Assembly: GCF_006716905.1 (NCBI RefSeq)
Contig: NZ_VFPV01000003.1
Location: 372,001-436,000, forward strand
DNA: 64,000 nt
Reading direction: 5' to 3'
From: Acidovorax temperans
Lineage (GTDB): Bacteria; Pseudomonadota; Gammaproteobacteria; Burkholderiales; Burkholderiaceae_C
Within the stretch, counting starts at the first letter, position 1. Each line of letters opens with the position of its first letter. The translations under genes were made by a program, and so were the position numbers. Below, in pieces: positions 53,988 through 61,819 of this stretch. The notes below the pieces were generated by a model that ran no database searches, was not told the DNA's origin, and worked only from the letters and a program-made list of their open reading frames with translations.

Positions 53988-55856
<1,869 letters not shown>

Positions 55857-56670
55857 CCCTCAAAAATCGGATGACAGTGTGACTTTCAAATCCCGAAGGG
55901 AATCCACATGACCAGCATACTTGATTGGATCAACGTAGGTGAAGTTTCTGCCGAGCGAGACAAAAATCTCACTCATTATTTCTATGATGCTGGGGTATCA
56001 AAAGAAATTATTGACAATCCAAAACAATATTTACTACTCGGACGCAAAGGCGCTGGTAAAACAGCAGTATTTCTGCATCTAACTAGAAAGCCCAAAGAAC
56101 TATTCGAAGAGGCTGATATTGTTGTTGGCCTTTCGCTGCAAAGTTACAACTGGCAGGCACATCAACTGTTGATCGACTCACAAAAGGAAGGTGGCTTTCA
56201 ACATAGGGATTCTTGGCGTTTTGTTTTATCAATTGAATCTATAAGAGCCGTTGTTACACACTTGCAAGATCGTGAACTCAAGATACCCAAAAATTTATCA
56301 AAAGCGGCGCAGGTTTTAGAAAGTTTATTTTCTAAACCAGTTCCGTCTTGGACCGATTTGCTCGGAGAAAAGCTATACAACCTAGCTAGCTTTGAGCTTC
56401 CAGGACTAGACGCCAGTACAGATGGGATTTCAGCAACAGGCGGAGCAATTTCATTCGAAGATTTAAAGGAAAAGCGCGATCTTCGGACAATAATGAACCG
56501 CAACATAAGCGCGCTAACAAACTGGCTAGAATTATGCCTTAAAGAAATCCCCTCAAACATTAGGATTTTTCTCGTTTTTGACCGATTAGATGAAGCATGG
56601 ACCACCTCATTTATTGAAGAATCCAAAACAATTATCTCTGGCCTGCTGCACGCATCTGAACATGCTCTAG

Positions 56671-57993
56671 CAGGCTGCTGAAATACTCCCCACCGACAGT
56701 CCGCGACAGCCGCCCAGCCGCGACAATCAAGCCCCCCACTGACCAGACAGACGAGCCATCCATGCGCGGAGCCGACACCTTCACCGAGAGCCTGTTCACG
56801 ATGCGCCATCTCGATGACTTCGTGCCCCTTGATCACCCCCTGCGGGTGATCCGCATCATGGTCAACAAGGCCCTGCAGAAGATGGACGATCTGTTTGCCC
56901 AGATGTATGCGGCCGACATCAAGGGCGGGCGCCCCAGCATTGCCCCCGAGAAGCTGCTGCGCGCCATGCTCATCCAGGTGCTCTACAGCGTGCGCTCGGA
57001 GCGCCAGCTCATGGAGCAGACCCAGTACAACCTTCTGTTTCGCTGGTTCATTGGCCTGGCCATGGACGATGCCGTTTGGGTGCCCACCGTCTTCAGCAAG
57101 AACCGCGAACGCCTGATCGAGCACGATGCGGTCATCGAGTTCTTCAATCAGATCGTGCAACAAGCCCAGGAGCAGGAACTGCTCTCGGGCGAGCACTTCA
57201 GCGTGGATGGCACCCTGATCCAGGCCTGGGCGGGCCACAAGAGTTTTGTGCGCAAAGACCGCCAGGGCGACGACGATACCGACGCGGGGAACTTCAAAGA
57301 CCAAAAGCGCAGCAACGACACCCACGAGTCCACAACGGACGCGGATGCAAGGCTGTACCGCAAGGGCAAGACGGCCAGTGAGTTGCGCTTCATGGGCCAC
57401 ACACTCACCGACAACCGCCACGGGCTGGTGGTCAGCGCCGTGGTCACACAGGCCGACGGATATGCAGAGCGCGAAGCGGCCAAGGCCATGATCAACGATG
57501 CGCGACAGGCACTGCCCGGCGATGACCCCATCACGATCACGCTGGGCGCAGACAAGGGTTACGACGCCAGGGAGTTCATCGACGCGCTGCAAGAGATGAA
57601 CGTGCTGCCCCATGTAGCGCAGAACAAGTCGGGGCGCCAGTCGGCAGTTCCTGACGCGATTGCAAACAGCGAAGGCTACGCCATCTCCCAGCAAAAGAGA
57701 AAGCTGATCGAACAAGGCTTTGGCTGGGCCAAGATGATCGGCAGCATCCGGCAAGTGATGGTGCGCGGACTGCAAAAGGTCGACCAGTTGTTTGTGCTGA
57801 ACATGGCTGCGTACAACCTCACGCGCATGCGCACCTTGGGACAGGTGCGTCTGCAGGGTGCCAGCGGGGTGTAAAGGGCGAAGAAAAGGGCTCAAAAACG
57901 AGCAAAACAGGCCCAGACTGCTGAAAAATCAGGCGGTTCCGTCAAAAGCGGGGAGGTGGGCTGGGCTGCGGCGGGGAGTATTTCAGCAGCCTG
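56671..57993 (+). mobile_element. IS5-type insertion sequence with CTAG target duplication
   Basis: 1323 bp. Terminal inverted repeats at least 21 bp (CAGGCTGCTGAAATACTCCC plus C). Flanked by CTAG at 56667-56670 and 57994-57997. One intact transposase. The exact duplication and in-frame rejoining of the host gene point to a recent insertion. Confidence 0.93.
56762..57874 (+). CDS. IS5-family (DUF772/DDE) transposase
   Basis: 370 residues. N-terminal DUF772-type region (SLFTMRHLDDFVPLDHPLR; APEKLLRAMLIQVLYSVRSE; YNLLFRWFIGLAMDD) and a DDE core: GEHFSVDGTLIQAWAG (first Asp), ITLGADKGYDAREF (second Asp) and RRKLIEQGFGWAKMIG-type end (KRKLIEQGFGWAKMIGSIRQ, with Glu). GC content high, unlike the ATPase it interrupts. 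Frame intact; likely active. Confidence 0.93.
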   Translation: MRGADTFTESLFTMRHLDDFVPLDHPLRVIRIMVNKALQKMDDLFAQMYAADIKGGRPSIAPEKLLRAMLIQVLYSVRSERQLMEQTQYNLLFRWFIGLAMDDAVWVPTVFSKNRERLIEHDAVIEFFNQIVQQAQEQELLSGEHFSVDGTLIQAWAGHKSFVRKDRQGDDDTDAGNFKDQKRSNDTHESTTDADARLYRKGKTASELRFMGHTLTDNRHGLVVSAVVTQADGYAEREAAKAMINDARQALPGDDPITITLGADKGYDAREFIDALQEMNVLPHVAQNKSGRQSAVPDAIANSEGYAISQQKRKLIEQGFGWAKMIGSIRQVMVRGLQKVDQLFVLNMAAYNLTRMRTLGQVRLQGASGV

Positions 57994-58842
57994 CTAGAGA
58001 AATTCAACGGAAAGATCCGCCCGATCATCTTTTTACGCGAGGATATATTTTGGTCCTTTGACATAAATGACAGGAATAAATTCCGCGAAGATTGCAGTCA
58101 GAATCTCCGCTGGAACACAGATTCGATCGAAAAATTAATATTAACACGCATAAATTATTATGCAGATTTGGCAAATCAGCCAAAAATCACTTCACTTCAA
58201 GATTTATTCCAAGAAAAAGAGATGCGGAGTCGAACTCCTCCGGTAAGGCACCTCTTCAACCGAACCATGTGCCGCCCTAGGGATATGGTTGCGTTTCTGC
58301 GTCGAACTTTCCAAGCAGCAAAAGACGATTTTTTAGTAAACGATCAAGCCACAAAGCTCTCCACAAAGGCTATTTACAGCGCGGAGCCTGGTTATAGCGA
58401 GTATCTTTTTGACGAATTGAGCGACGAATGGAGAACTCAAAATCCCGAGTTCTCGGAATATCTCGCCGGCATTGAAAATTTAAAATACACAATCTTTCAA
58501 TCTTTAGAGTATCAAGCGGAGCTCAAGAAAAAAGAACTTGCAACCGATACGTCAGAGTACAGAAAAATTGCCCGATTTTTATTCGACAATTCAATTCTTG
58601 GGATAACAGTTGGAGAATCAAAAACTTGGCGCTATAAGTGTTTTTATCCAAACCAAGGTTTTGACGATACCGGATATTTCAAAGTGCACCCTGGCCTCAT
58701 CAAAAGACTTGGATTAATCGAAGGATCGACCGGCGAGCAGTCCCAAGCGCCCGCCTCAGAAGAATAGGTATTCCAAATTCAAACCTCACCAAAACCGACG
58801 ACCGGTCTACCCAGCAAACAACAGCTTAGCTAAGCCGAAACC

Positions 58843-58957
58843 ATGCGCCCCTCAGAAGCTCTTTCGCTGCACCGCTCGCAAATCCGCGAGATCGCGCTTC
58901 GCCACCACGTTAACAGCGTTCGGGTGTTTGGCTCGGCGCTGCGTGGAGACGACAAGA
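58843..58957 (+). pseudogene. Truncated MNT-type nucleotidyltransferase
   Basis: The first ~37 codons (MRPSEALSLHRSQIREIALR, then VRVFGSALRGDD) match the start of MntA-type minimal nucleotidyltransferases, the antitoxin half of HEPN/MNT modules. The GSxxxGD-type motif is present but the catalytic DxD strand and the rest are absent. Homology ends near 58957 where unrelated sequence (AAACAGGGTCAGGTCTTGCC) begins. Confidence 0.75.
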
Positions 58958-58996
58958 GTGAAACAGGGTCAGGTCTTGCCTTTCGCCGAGTAACCC

Positions 58997-59233
58997 ATGA
59001 GCAACGTAGCGAACTCGTCAAACTTCGACCCCGCGCAGGCCGCACTGGCCGCCCTGTCACGCGCAGGGTTGCGTGCAGCCGAAGAGGCGCGGCGTGCCAA
59101 CACCTGTATGGTGGTCGAGGAAGACGGCAAAGTGCTGCACGAGAGTCCGCAGGAATATTTGCGCAAGCGCAGTGAGCAGCCCTTGCTTTCAAGCACAAAG
59201 CCCAGCGTCCATGACACGCTCGATGCCCTCTGA
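58997..59233 (+). CDS. Small hypothetical protein
   Basis: 78 residues: SNFDPAQAALAALSRAGLRAAEEARR forms an amphipathic helix, then NTCMVVEEDGKVLHESPQEY and a short tail. I recognise no domain. The VVEEDGKV segment resembles the short strand-plus-helix proteins encoded near toxin-antitoxin loci. Fifty-one bases before the antitoxin gene. No strong ribosome site is visible, so coding status is uncertain. Confidence 0.5.
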   Translation: MSNVANSSNFDPAQAALAALSRAGLRAAEEARRANTCMVVEEDGKVLHESPQEYLRKRSEQPLLSSTKPSVHDTLDAL

Positions 59234-59284: not shown

Positions 59285-59518
59285 ATGACCACCACCGCCG
59301 AAGCCCTCAGCGCCCAAGCCGCCCTACTGCCGCCCGCAGAGCGCATGCAAGTGGTAGAGCGCATCCTGGACAGCCTGGATCAGCCTGACGCCGCGCTCGA
59401 TACGCTCTGGGCCCATGAAGCAAGTGACCGGCTGGCCGCCTACCGGCGCGGCGAGATCAAGGCGGTGGCCTTGTCCGATGTGATTGCGAAGTACTCTGCC
59501 GCCGCCCAGCGCACATGA
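59285..59518 (+). CDS. Addiction-module antitoxin (TIGR02574/Unstab_antitox family)
   Basis: 77 residues. LPPAERMQVVERILDSLDQPD (about 16-36) and W-x-x-E-x-x-x-R (WAHEASDRLAAYRRGEI) are the family signature; the tail ALSDVIAKYSA is usual. Neutralises the toxin encoded by the overlapping next gene and probably represses the operon. Four-base overlap ATGA with the toxin. Confidence 0.9.
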   Translation: MTTTAEALSAQAALLPPAERMQVVERILDSLDQPDAALDTLWAHEASDRLAAYRRGEIKAVALSDVIAKYSAAAQRT

Positions 59519-59808
59519 ACATCCGCTTGCTGGAGCCAGCACAAGCAGAGCTGGACGAAGCCATTGCCTGGTATGCAGAACAAGCGCCAGGGTTGGGTGA
59601 TGCTTTTTTGGTCGAAACGCTCAAGACCCTGCGGCTTGTAGAGCAGTTTCCCGAAGCGTGGCACCCGCTCTCCCCTGAGATTCGGCGCTGCCGGTTGCGG
59701 CGCTTTCCCTACAGCGTGGTCTACACGCGAGATGGCCCAGACATTCTGGTGCTCGCCATCGCGCACCAGCACCGCAAACCCGGCTATTGGAAGCATCGGC
59801 GTGGCTGA
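59515..59808 (+). CDS. RelE/ParE-family toxin
   Basis: 97 residues. ParE-type fold: LEPAQAELDEAIAWYAEQAPGLGDAFLVE at the N-terminus, LRRFPYSVVYTRDGPDILVLAIAHQHRKPGYW at the C-terminus (key RRFPYSVVYT and HQHRKPGYW). Family members inhibit gyrase or cut mRNA on the ribosome; this group resembles ParE more. Coupled to the antitoxin. Twenty-six bases after its stop lies a dispersed-repeat copy. Confidence 0.92.
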   Translation: MNIRLLEPAQAELDEAIAWYAEQAPGLGDAFLVETLKTLRLVEQFPEAWHPLSPEIRRCRLRRFPYSVVYTRDGPDILVLAIAHQHRKPGYWKHRRG

Positions 59809-59919: not shown

Positions 59920-60231
59920 ATGACACATCCCTTCACCCCCACCTACGGCCCCGTGCCGCCCGGCCCGCTCGCGGGGCCGCTGCAGTTGCTGCCCGTGAAC
60001 GCCGATGTGATGGCGGTGCACACCGCCACCGGGGCGCATGTGGGTTCGCTCAAGAAGCTGGGCGGGGTGTGGAAGTTCAAGGCCATGGGCTATGGCGCTG
60101 ATGGCAGCATGGAGCCGGGCCACGGCCCACTGACGGACCAGCACAACATGGCGTTTTCCACGCCCGATGCGGCCGAGGTGAGTGCACGGCTGCTGGGGGC
60201 GCTGGAGGGTGAATCTGGCGCGGGGTGTTGA
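59920..60231 (+). CDS. Hypothetical protein
   Basis: 103 residues from the ATG at 59920. THPFTPTYGPVPPGPLAGPLQLLPVNADVMAVH, then GAHVGSLKKLGGVWKFKAMGYGADGSMEPGHGPLT and FSTPDAAEVSARLLGAL. The pattern of short strands (VGSLK..GVWKFKAMGY) plus a C-terminal helix looks like a small folded cytoplasmic protein, seen in Comamonadaceae, but I know no function. Codon use is like the core genes. Confidence 0.6.
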   Translation: MTHPFTPTYGPVPPGPLAGPLQLLPVNADVMAVHTATGAHVGSLKKLGGVWKFKAMGYGADGSMEPGHGPLTDQHNMAFSTPDAAEVSARLLGALEGESGAGC

Positions 60232-60829
60232 CGGTTGAAAGCCCTCGGCACGCTTTGTGGCGCCGGGGGTTGTGGGCCTGCAGTGAGTGGCCTACGCACC
60301 GGGCGCAGCTGGCGCTGAAGCGAATTTGCAAGGGCTCTCCTTGTCGTTCGGCACAGCCCTGAAATTGCTCTCATATTTATAGCTAGCAGCGCTTACTAGC
60401 TGAGCGCTACAGGCACTTTTTACTTCAAAAATCTGGTGGCGCAAGCTGCGCACGCTTGGCCAGCAACGCACTTGTGCTGGCTAGCAGGTGTGCGCTCGCG
60501 CTTGCCTTCATGGCCGCCCGAAAGAAGGCCGCGTGTCCCCATCGACGTCACGGCTTGAAGCGTTCGGCGAAGGAAAGTTGGATACAACCTCCGCACCTGC
60601 TTACAATGTTAACAAAATGTAATTTGATACGGATTGCCGTAGCGGTTGCATGGCAGCAGCGCAGGCGTGGGAGGTGTTTGGCACCCCGCTTTCTGCGCTA
60701 CGTAACTGATAGCACCCAGCGCTTTCTGCACAAGCCCTAGAAAGCTTTGAGGCGTTGGGATTGCCCCACTTGATGCGGCCTAAAACTGCCGGGCAGGCCG
60801 CAGACCATCGTGTTAGCAAGGAGAACGAC
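60232..60829. other. Gene-poor region before the nuclease gene
   Basis: About 600 bases. It contains one dispersed-repeat copy (60366-60432) and otherwise no recognisable gene; several open frames lack protein character. TTACAATGTTAACAAAATGT at 60600-60619 is an AT-rich patch that could be part of a promoter. The nuclease ribosome site AAGGAG (60818-60823) ends it. Confidence 0.4.
60366..60432 (+). repeat. Dispersed repeat, copy before the nuclease gene
   Basis: GCTCT-catATTT-ATAGCTAGCAGCGCTT, ACTAGCTG, AGCGCTACAGGCACTTTTTACTTCAAAA. AGCGCT/AGCGCT stem. Confidence 0.85.
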
Positions 60830-61819
60830 GTGGCACGCACTTATTCACGATCGGTGGGGCGCAGCAGGCGGCATGAGCGGGCGCGGGGTGCGCTGCGCGA
60901 AAAGGGCTGGGCGGCGTGCGTGCTGGGTGTGGCGCTGCTGACAGTGTTCCCGCTGGTGGCTGGCAACACTACCTTCGGTACCGCCGTCAGCCAAGGGCTG
61001 CGCCCGGTGGGGTGGACGGCCTTGGGCCTGGGGGTGGTGCTGCTGGCCCTGCACTATGTGTTGAAAGGCAAAGAAGCAAAACTGCGCGCGGTGCCCCCCG
61101 CCAACTCGCGCCCGGCAGCGCAAAAGCGCAACGGGCGCGCCACGCTGCAAACCGCCAACAGCGTTGCAAGCCACCCTGCTGCCGATACCCGCAACACGGC
61201 GCAACGCACCGAGCCCACGCTGACCGACACGGCGGCCCCCACAGCAACCCCGGCCGGACCCGCGGTGGCATGGAACATGGAAGTGTTTGCCGCGATTGAG
61301 TGGCGCCGCTTTGAAGCGGTGTGCGAGGCGCTGTTTGCGCAGGCGGGGTTTGAGACGCATGCCCAATCGCACGGGGCCGATGGTGGCGTGGACATTTGGC
61401 TGCACAGCCGCAACAGCCCGGGCCCGGCGGCGGTGGTGCAATGCAAGCACTGGCAGAGCAAACCCGTGGGCGTGCGCGAGCTGCGCGAGTTTTATGGGGT
61501 GATGGCATCGCACAAGCTCAAGCGCGGCACGTTTGCCACCACGTCCACCTACACGCCCGAGGCCCTGGCGTTTGCGCGGGCCAACAGCATTCACACGCTG
61601 GACGGCGCCGGGCTGCTGCAACTCATCAGCCGCCGCACGCCTGCGCAGCAGCAGGAACTGCTGCAAGTGGCTTATGAGGGAGAGTATTGGCGCCCCACCT
61701 GCGCAAGCTGCGGCACCAAGATGGTGGAGCGCAGCCGCAGCAGCGATGGCGGCCTGTTCTGGGGCTGCACCAACTACCCGCGCTGCAAGCGCACGCTGCC
61801 CAAGGCCACCGGCGGTTAG
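60830..61819 (+). CDS. Membrane-anchored Mrr-like restriction endonuclease with C4 zinc ribbon
   Basis: 329 residues from a GTG at 60830 with AAGGAG seven bases before it. Basic N-terminus, two membrane segments (about 27-44 and 62-78), an Ala/Thr linker, then an Mrr-type PD-(D/E)xK domain (about 150-268): FEAVCEALFAQAGFE, GADGGVDIWLHS (D188) and VVQCKHWQ (Q204-x-K206). The C-terminal topoisomerase-type zinc ribbon has C291, C294, C313 and C319. Such proteins may cut modified or foreign DNA at the membrane, or assist DNA processing. Its stop codon overlaps a dispersed-repeat copy. Confidence 0.88.
   Translation: MARTYSRSVGRSRRHERARGALREKGWAACVLGVALLTVFPLVAGNTTFGTAVSQGLRPVGWTALGLGVVLLALHYVLKGKEAKLRAVPPANSRPAAQKRNGRATLQTANSVASHPAADTRNTAQRTEPTLTDTAAPTATPAGPAVAWNMEVFAAIEWRRFEAVCEALFAQAGFETHAQSHGADGGVDIWLHSRNSPGPAAVVQCKHWQSKPVGVRELREFYGVMASHKLKRGTFATTSTYTPEALAFARANSIHTLDGAGLLQLISRRTPAQQQELLQVAYEGEYWRPTCASCGTKMVERSRSSDGGLFWGCTNYPRCKRTLPKATGG

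Follow-up and report, generated by a model that had tools for sequence, protein, structure and literature searches.

An Sll1717-family ATPase gene in a defence hotspot beside glnS of Acidovorax temperans is split by a recent IS5-family insertion

We analysed a 64,000-nucleotide stretch of the Acidovorax temperans genome (hereafter, the window) and found a P-loop ATPase gene of the Sll1717 family split by an insertion sequence (IS) of the IS5 family directly downstream of glnS. This gene is probably a horizontally acquired, single-gene cargo of a hotspot that starts at glnS. Its product would have an ORC/Cdc6- or STAND-like fold and most likely defend against phages or other incoming DNA as a sensor or switch driven by ATP, and the IS would have knocked it out recently at a CTAG site. 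The proposed sequence of events has three elements. The ATPase would be an ATP-dependent switch with a predicted C-terminal winged helix, sensing incoming DNA or a phage product. It would have arrived horizontally as cargo of the interval that separates glnS from the gene at 59920. Later, an IS5-family element active in this genome would have inserted at one of the CTAG sites of the gene and silenced it.

The inactivation of defence genes by IS is already known, and the window ATPase is a new case. Passages of one earlier study (PMC10359306) describe how IS1 and IS10 insert into cas genes and into 12 further defence clusters, and note the YTAR target motif of IS5. These cases resemble the window in that an IS disables a defence locus. 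The 12 clusters concern IS1 and IS10, and the passages contain no Sll1717-type ATPase, no glnS hotspot and no argument from the rarity of CTAG. What our analysis adds is two leads, namely that CTAG rarity may guide IS into imported defence genes and that breaks may cluster behind Walker B. It also links a widespread but uncharacterised family of ATPases with a specific defence hotspot on the chromosome.

Results

Anatomy of the split gene

Once the 1323-bp IS and one CTAG are removed, the two halves of the gene rejoin into 1533 nt, i.e. 510 codons and a stop, as a sequence-only reading of this DNA had proposed. That reading also described the gene as AT-rich and adjacent to glnS. Indeed, its GC content is 41.6% against 63.3% in the rest of the window, and it starts at 55908, fifty-two bases from the glnS stop at 55856 (table 1). 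Both halves match the NCBIfam model NF047389 (“P-loop ATPase, Sll1717 family”) above its cut-off of 75 bits, and the parts of the profile that they cover are contiguous. The gene is thus a member of the family by score and by coverage of the whole profile. We aligned it with 27 homologues and observed that all motifs conserved across them are kept: Walker A (GRKGAGKT), Walker B (FLVFDRLDEAW), FLREDIF, RPRD and the C-terminal KVHPGL block. The earlier description of intact Walker motifs and a conserved C-terminal half is therefore accurate. We also looked in this alignment for other inactivating changes, and saw no stop or frameshift besides the IS in either half.

The interrupted N-terminal ORF has 257 aa and terminates within the IS. 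The break parts Walker B from the C-terminal half, and the function of the ATPase has presumably been lost with it. Since the break falls behind Walker B, the N-terminal piece would retain the nucleotide site and lose the lid and the winged helix.

Table 1. Features of the window (positions in nucleotides) and transposon breaks in the ATPase family (positions in codons of the E. coli MB06232 allele, where Walker A lies at 45 and Walker B at 230).
Feature	Position	Strand	Remarks
glnS, left border of variable interval	53988..55856	+	ORF; DNA matches to its 3' part in 43 of 46 other congeners
Sll1717-family P-loop ATPase gene, IS-split	55908-58767	+	directly 3' of glnS
ATPase N-terminal half, Walker A and Walker B	55908..56670	+	NF047389, 107.2 bits (cut-off 75), profile 2-217 of 454
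CTAG, left copy of target duplication	56667..56670
IS5-family insertion sequence, 1323 bp	56671..57993	+	inverted repeats about 56671-56695 and 57969-57993
IS5-family transposase, 370 aa	56762..57874	+	NF033581, 279 bits (cut-off 140); DUF772, DDE_Tnp_1
CTAG, right copy of target duplication	57994..57997
ATPase C-terminal half, lid and predicted winged helix	57998..58767	+	NF047389, 133.5 bits (cut-off 75), profile 222-454
Apparent fragment of minimal nucleotidyltransferase gene (MNT-like)	58843..59000	+	8 of 20 congeners have similar stretches in this interval; family named from sequence reading
Antitoxin of addiction module	59285..59517	+	PF09720, E 5.8e-15; TIGR02574 above cut-off
ParE-type toxin of addiction module	59515..59808	+	PF05016, E 5e-11
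Conserved small gene, right border of variable interval	59920..60231	+	tblastn match in 20 of 20 congener stretches
Break, window	codon 257-262		IS5
Break, Comamonadaceae 2FH (L053)	codon 237		short inverted-repeat insert
Break, Lysobacterales MAG (L073)	codon 236		IS3 family; N half not found in locus
Break, Acaryochloris plasmid (L050)	codon 244-249		IS256 family, AAAGTTCT repeat; plus two frameshifts
Break, E. coli PEC408	codon 271-273		IS1
Break, E. coli G1/2, G6/7, G8	codon 125-127		identical IS1 insertion in all
Break, Acinetobacter JUb89 (L061)	about codon 98		contig begins with IS3-type-like tail; least certain

The element shares with the IS5 family (NF033581) the transposase score, the terminal inverted repeats and the 4-bp YTAR target duplication, and we found nothing unusual in it. 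Its termini form near-perfect inverted repeats (31 nt, 97%, a span that includes target bases). The genome (4.65 Mb, 6 contigs) holds six full-length copies: three identical at 100%, including that of the window, and others at 99.9, 99.3 and 97.1%. Further copies are more decayed. All six full-length copies are flanked by a 4-bp duplication, CTAG in four cases and TTAG in two. The insertion into the ATPase is recent, since two other copies in the genome are 100% identical to it and the ATPase frame is otherwise open. This agrees with the earlier description of the gene as freshly inactivated. Could the insertion be an artefact of the assembly, or be present in only a minority of the cultured cells? 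An assembler could be misled by six IS copies that are nearly identical. We nevertheless regard this as very unlikely, because the contig is 802 kb long in an assembly of 6 contigs and the junctions show a proper 4-bp duplication, as at the other five full-length copies.

Among the six full-length copies, the window copy is the only one in a recognisable defence-type gene. One of the other five is directly 5' of a cheD-like ORF or inside its start (family name from sequence reading), one is within another transposase and three lie among ORFs that we did not recognise. The sister copy L002 (G000:C2:766898-768226), 100% identical, is in a stretch of 47-48% GC adjoining the cheD-like ORF, in a genome of 63% GC.

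The interval between glnS and the 59920 gene

The left border of the interval is an ORF which, by its sequence, we take to encode glutaminyl-tRNA synthetase (glnS). We compared about 11 kb located 3' of it in 20 of the 43 congeners that have the glnS 3' region. The 59920 gene is kept in all 20 stretches. Counted from the first base of each stretch, which falls within the last bases of glnS, it begins at a distance of 1296 to 5781 bases. Hence, the length of the interval varies from 1.3 to 5.8 kb. We then searched 20 selected, mostly AT-rich, cargo ORFs from 12 of the 20 loci with the PADLOC models (E ≤ 1e-5). This revealed matches for 14 of the 20 ORFs, in 8 of the 12 loci. For example, there is a PD-Lambda-5_B methyltransferase (8.6e-114) beside an AAA ATPase in L130, PD-T4-2_A (5.4e-139) in L144, HEC-01A (8.2e-101) with HEC-01B (4.9e-18) in L148, HEC-06/Orf5 with GmrSD domains in L137 and L143, and AriA (4.5e-31) with AriB (1.3e-11) in L141. 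The scanned ORFs of L129, L133, L135 and L139 gave no PADLOC match; in L139, a NACHT match is weak and falls short of the Pfam cut-off. Pieces of toxin-antitoxin systems (the antitoxin, ParE and MNT-like genes) recur in the interval across congeners. With core borders shared by 20 of 20 congeners and defence-like cargo in 8 of 12 scanned loci, the interval behaves as a defence hotspot. A literature search of limited scope found no publication on an Acidovorax defence island or hotspot.

Cargo genes of this hotspot are split by IS at three loci, each time with CTAG on both sides. Besides the window, a GmrSD-type gene is split by an IS481-family element in L143 (273.6 bits, cut-off 224) and an AriA-like gene by an IS5-family element in L141 (326 bits, cut-off 140). 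Both elements have inverted repeats and, on each side, a CTAG that is a putative target duplication. The GmrSD-type gene of L137 is apparently frameshifted near its start. A transposase search of the 20 stretches gave two matches in the hotspot intervals (L141 and L143, both inside cargo genes) and none downstream, a comparison biased by queries taken largely from the broken genes, of which one, from IS1, was perhaps antisense.

Some occupants of the region deserve mention in their own right. The cargo at L133:105-2502 includes a dCTP deaminase-like ORF (PF22769), an ORF with a match to FMN oxidoreductase and another whose sequence suggests a thymidylate kinase; it is possibly a nucleotide-pool defence operon absent from PADLOC. 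At L135:9691-10989 there is an AAA ATPase of 433 aa that matched no NCBIfam or PADLOC model, and L145:8204-11003 encodes a GmrSD_N (DUF262) protein adjoining a C5 cytosine methyltransferase. In the window itself, positions 60755-61819 encode a protein of 354 aa that combines a topoisomerase-type zinc ribbon with a restriction endonuclease domain of the Mrr type (PF04471, E 5.7e-30). Its homologues (60-62% identity) are found near the hotspot in two of the 20 congeners (L129 and L148). Finally, displaced fragments of the glnS 3' end lie 3' of the intact gene in L015 and L017 (G046 and G003) and at G045:C32:24779-25041. This fits incoming DNA that brings its own glnS end, and repeated insertion at this end of glnS.

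Origin and distribution of the ATPase

The closest matches to the window ATPase, at 58-63% identity, are in an IMG/VR contig and in Azotobacter, while the sole strong homologue within the genus is at 39-40%. Horizontal acquisition is supported by this comparison, and the sequence-only reading was probably right on this point. It was also right that the gene varies between strains. At E ≤ 0.001, the C-terminal half has a match in 2 of 46 other congeners: a strong one in G021 (40% identity, elsewhere in the genome) and a weak one in G014 (2e-4).

Homologues were collected by a genome scan (30 loci) and a viral scan (7, including L086 and L088, which duplicate genome loci). The settings of these homologues are diverse. 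L064 is among the genes of a Mu-like prophage, the Klebsiella variicola homologue is on a conjugative IncFIB/IncFII plasmid, adjoining pifC and a P-loop NTPase, and five others are in IMG/VR contigs. For viral contigs, a single C-half query confirmed 0 of 15 stretches, and an alignment query found 7. Searches of 50,697 phage records with the C-terminal half and with the intact plasmid homologue revealed no relative. In E. coli, the homologue is carried by 6 of 5426 genomes, where ttcA lies on one side and, on the other, an integrase remnant that adjoins uspF. We take ttcA to be the Rac attachment site, and L083 is presumably Rac-like. Among 145 ORFs neighbouring the homologues of the 30 loci, 13 PADLOC families are represented by 1-2 ORFs each, which is no strong enrichment in a count made without a control set. 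Hence, the homologues are accessory and often mobile, yet not mainly in recognisable defence islands. Nor are they confined to conserved core settings, though LepA, the product of a core gene, is encoded by four of the 145 neighbouring ORFs. Judging from length and position, the four are presumably the genes directly upstream of L057, L060, L067 and L068, all alphaproteobacterial loci, and the lepA side is perhaps a second recurrent landing site.

Relatives, fold and probable role

The NF047389 family has a name with no function attached, and a full-text search of limited scope for ‘Sll1717’ found no publication. Its members L091 and L082 are intact and match the whole profile with 265 and 245 bits, whereas the window copy is split. 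Of the intact relatives, L082 is the closest, with 63 and 58% identity to the window halves, and we used its AlphaFold model (pLDDT 87.3, pTM 0.84) to search for structural similarities. With VIA-align, the model matches 2fna (SSO1545, an archaeal AAA+ ATPase) with Z 12.8, Cdc6/Orc1 with 12.3, CED-4 with 11.9 and NRC4 with 11.8, Orc2 falling between 12.8 and 11.8. TM values given by Foldseek are low, 0.27-0.39 for the top matches. At the sequence level, the Pfam ORC-CDC6-like match has E 0.096, a search of PDB sequences gave nothing below E 0.028 and PADLOC-DB 2.0.0 gave 0 families for either half at E ≤ 0.1. No effector domain was recognisable in the ATPase.

DS-41 (NF053860) is listed, in passages of PMC13092281, among the systems of the DefensePredictor study validated against phages in E. 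coli. The profile of the ATPase aligns with a member of this family over 318 columns spanning Walker A to the lid (E 4.4e-5, probability 69%), but little C-terminal similarity is aligned and the halves score 24.5 and 34.6 bits against a cut-off of 370. We therefore rejected membership in DS-41, which is only a distant homologue.

We infer an anti-phage role from the hotspot location, the homologues on mobile elements and the distant relationship to the validated DS-41. Points against it are that neither half matches a PADLOC model, that the ATPase shows no effector domain, that the phage records gave no relative, that PADLOC families are few and LepA is present among the neighbours of homologues, and that the other five full-length IS copies lie outside recognisable defence-type genes. 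The sequence-only reading had suggested an anti-phage or stress gene. The defence-type setting at glnS favours it, and the activity against phages stays at the level of probability. Alternatively, the ATPase may serve the mobile elements themselves, e.g. in DNA replication, transposition or partition. The predicted fold would suit this as well, as it matches Orc/Cdc6, TnsC and MuB as much as STAND proteins, and homologues occur in prophages and on plasmids. Yet in the glnS hotspot the ATPase stands alone by toxin-antitoxin genes, not replication or transposition genes, and the other occupants are defence-like, which makes such a service unlikely. We thus favour a role in defence.

Recurrent breaks in the ATPase family

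We assessed the integrity of 34 close loci by tblastn with the intact plasmid protein. The set includes the scan loci, two plasmid loci, one E. coli locus and the window, and leaves out the distant matches L075, L076, L077, L080 and L081. The frame is open in 26 loci, broken by a transposon in six and affected by frameshifts only in two (L070 of Azotobacter and L074 of Rhizobium). The six broken loci account for seven transposon breaks (table 1). NCBIfam models confirmed the transposases of L050 and L073; for those of E. coli we follow the annotation.

E. coli has two intact and four broken alleles, the latter resulting from two separate IS1 insertions with 9-bp duplications. Compared with the intact allele, the halves of the broken ones show 99.9-100% identity. 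Over about 24 kb, the flanks of PEC408 and G1/2 can be aligned to those of MB06232 and contain no other insertion. Such natural allele pairs, one intact and one IS-broken, are found notably in E. coli and allow direct tests of the role and cost of the ATPase.

The breaks could result from selection, not targeting: if the ATPase were costly, by autoimmunity or by the loss of beneficial mobile DNA, IS-broken alleles would win, repeatedly in the family and in the hotspot. The diversity of the elements is consistent with this, since the seven breaks in 6 of 34 loci involve IS5, IS256, IS3-type and IS1 elements and a short inverted-repeat insert, which are not all CTAG users. So are the two independent IS1 insertions of E. 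coli, in flanks otherwise free of insertions over the aligned 24 kb. Still, 26 of the 34 loci are intact, we saw no split in 15 distant members and one closer one, and a neutral dispensable gene would collect insertions too. We consider selection a serious possibility, somewhat short of an even chance. A control for the rate of disruption, a pifA-like gene of the K. variicola plasmid, had no E. coli match at the sensitivity used. Leaving aside the elements inside or next to the broken genes, transposase matches in the flanks of 33 homologue loci number 2 in 539,912 bp (L051 and L053), as counted with a biased set of queries.

Target-site preference

The full-length copies of the element all lie at YTAR sites (CTAG or TTAG), which are unevenly distributed. 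In the host part of the window, we counted 18 CTAG in 61,089 bp, when 60.8 are expected from trinucleotides, i.e. the site is 3.4-fold rarer than expected. The ATPase gene has 7 in 1533 bp against 3.3 expected. The density of YTAR is 1.05 per kb in the host window and 13.7 in the ATPase gene. Across the 20 congeners, there are 120 CTAG in 66,461 bp of hotspot interval and 68 in the 154,019 bp beyond. Since these sites are scarce in host DNA and enriched in hotspot cargo, an element that needs them will encounter imported DNA much more frequently than expected from the length of that DNA.

It was previously suggested that the insertion reflects relaxed selection or a cost. This remains one reading, but it did not consider the enrichment of CTAG and YTAR in the foreign gene, and target preference may explain the hit on the ATPase just as well. 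The bias in target sites might even be sufficient by itself, with CTAG/YTAR-seeking elements landing in imported AT-rich DNA for lack of such sites in the host. The counts above and the CTAG or TTAG duplications at all six full-length copies point in this direction. Against it, five of these six copies are at YTAR sites outside recognisable defence genes, most of them in DNA of 58-67% GC, and the IS1, IS256 and IS3-type insertions in homologues have no need for CTAG. We regard target bias alone as a tentative explanation, with perhaps one case in its favour for every two against. The CTAG observation gives, in any event, a testable reason why imported defence genes are often IS-broken, one that involves no selection against the gene.

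The two leads can be combined in a broader, and in our view doubtful, proposal. As CTAG, and YTAR in general, are avoided in host DNA, CTAG-seeking IS would be an unplanned filter that breaks newly imported AT-rich genes, defence genes above all. Turnover of defence hotspots would then be driven by targeted IS attack, not by selection alone. Unrelated elements would preferentially enter the genes of Sll1717-type ATPases directly behind Walker B, at codons 236-273 of 514. Five of the seven breaks fall inside these 38 codons (p = 0.0018 in a uniform simulation, post hoc, that took L061 at codon 108, before its first homologous residue was put at 98), and we treat this cluster as a lead only.
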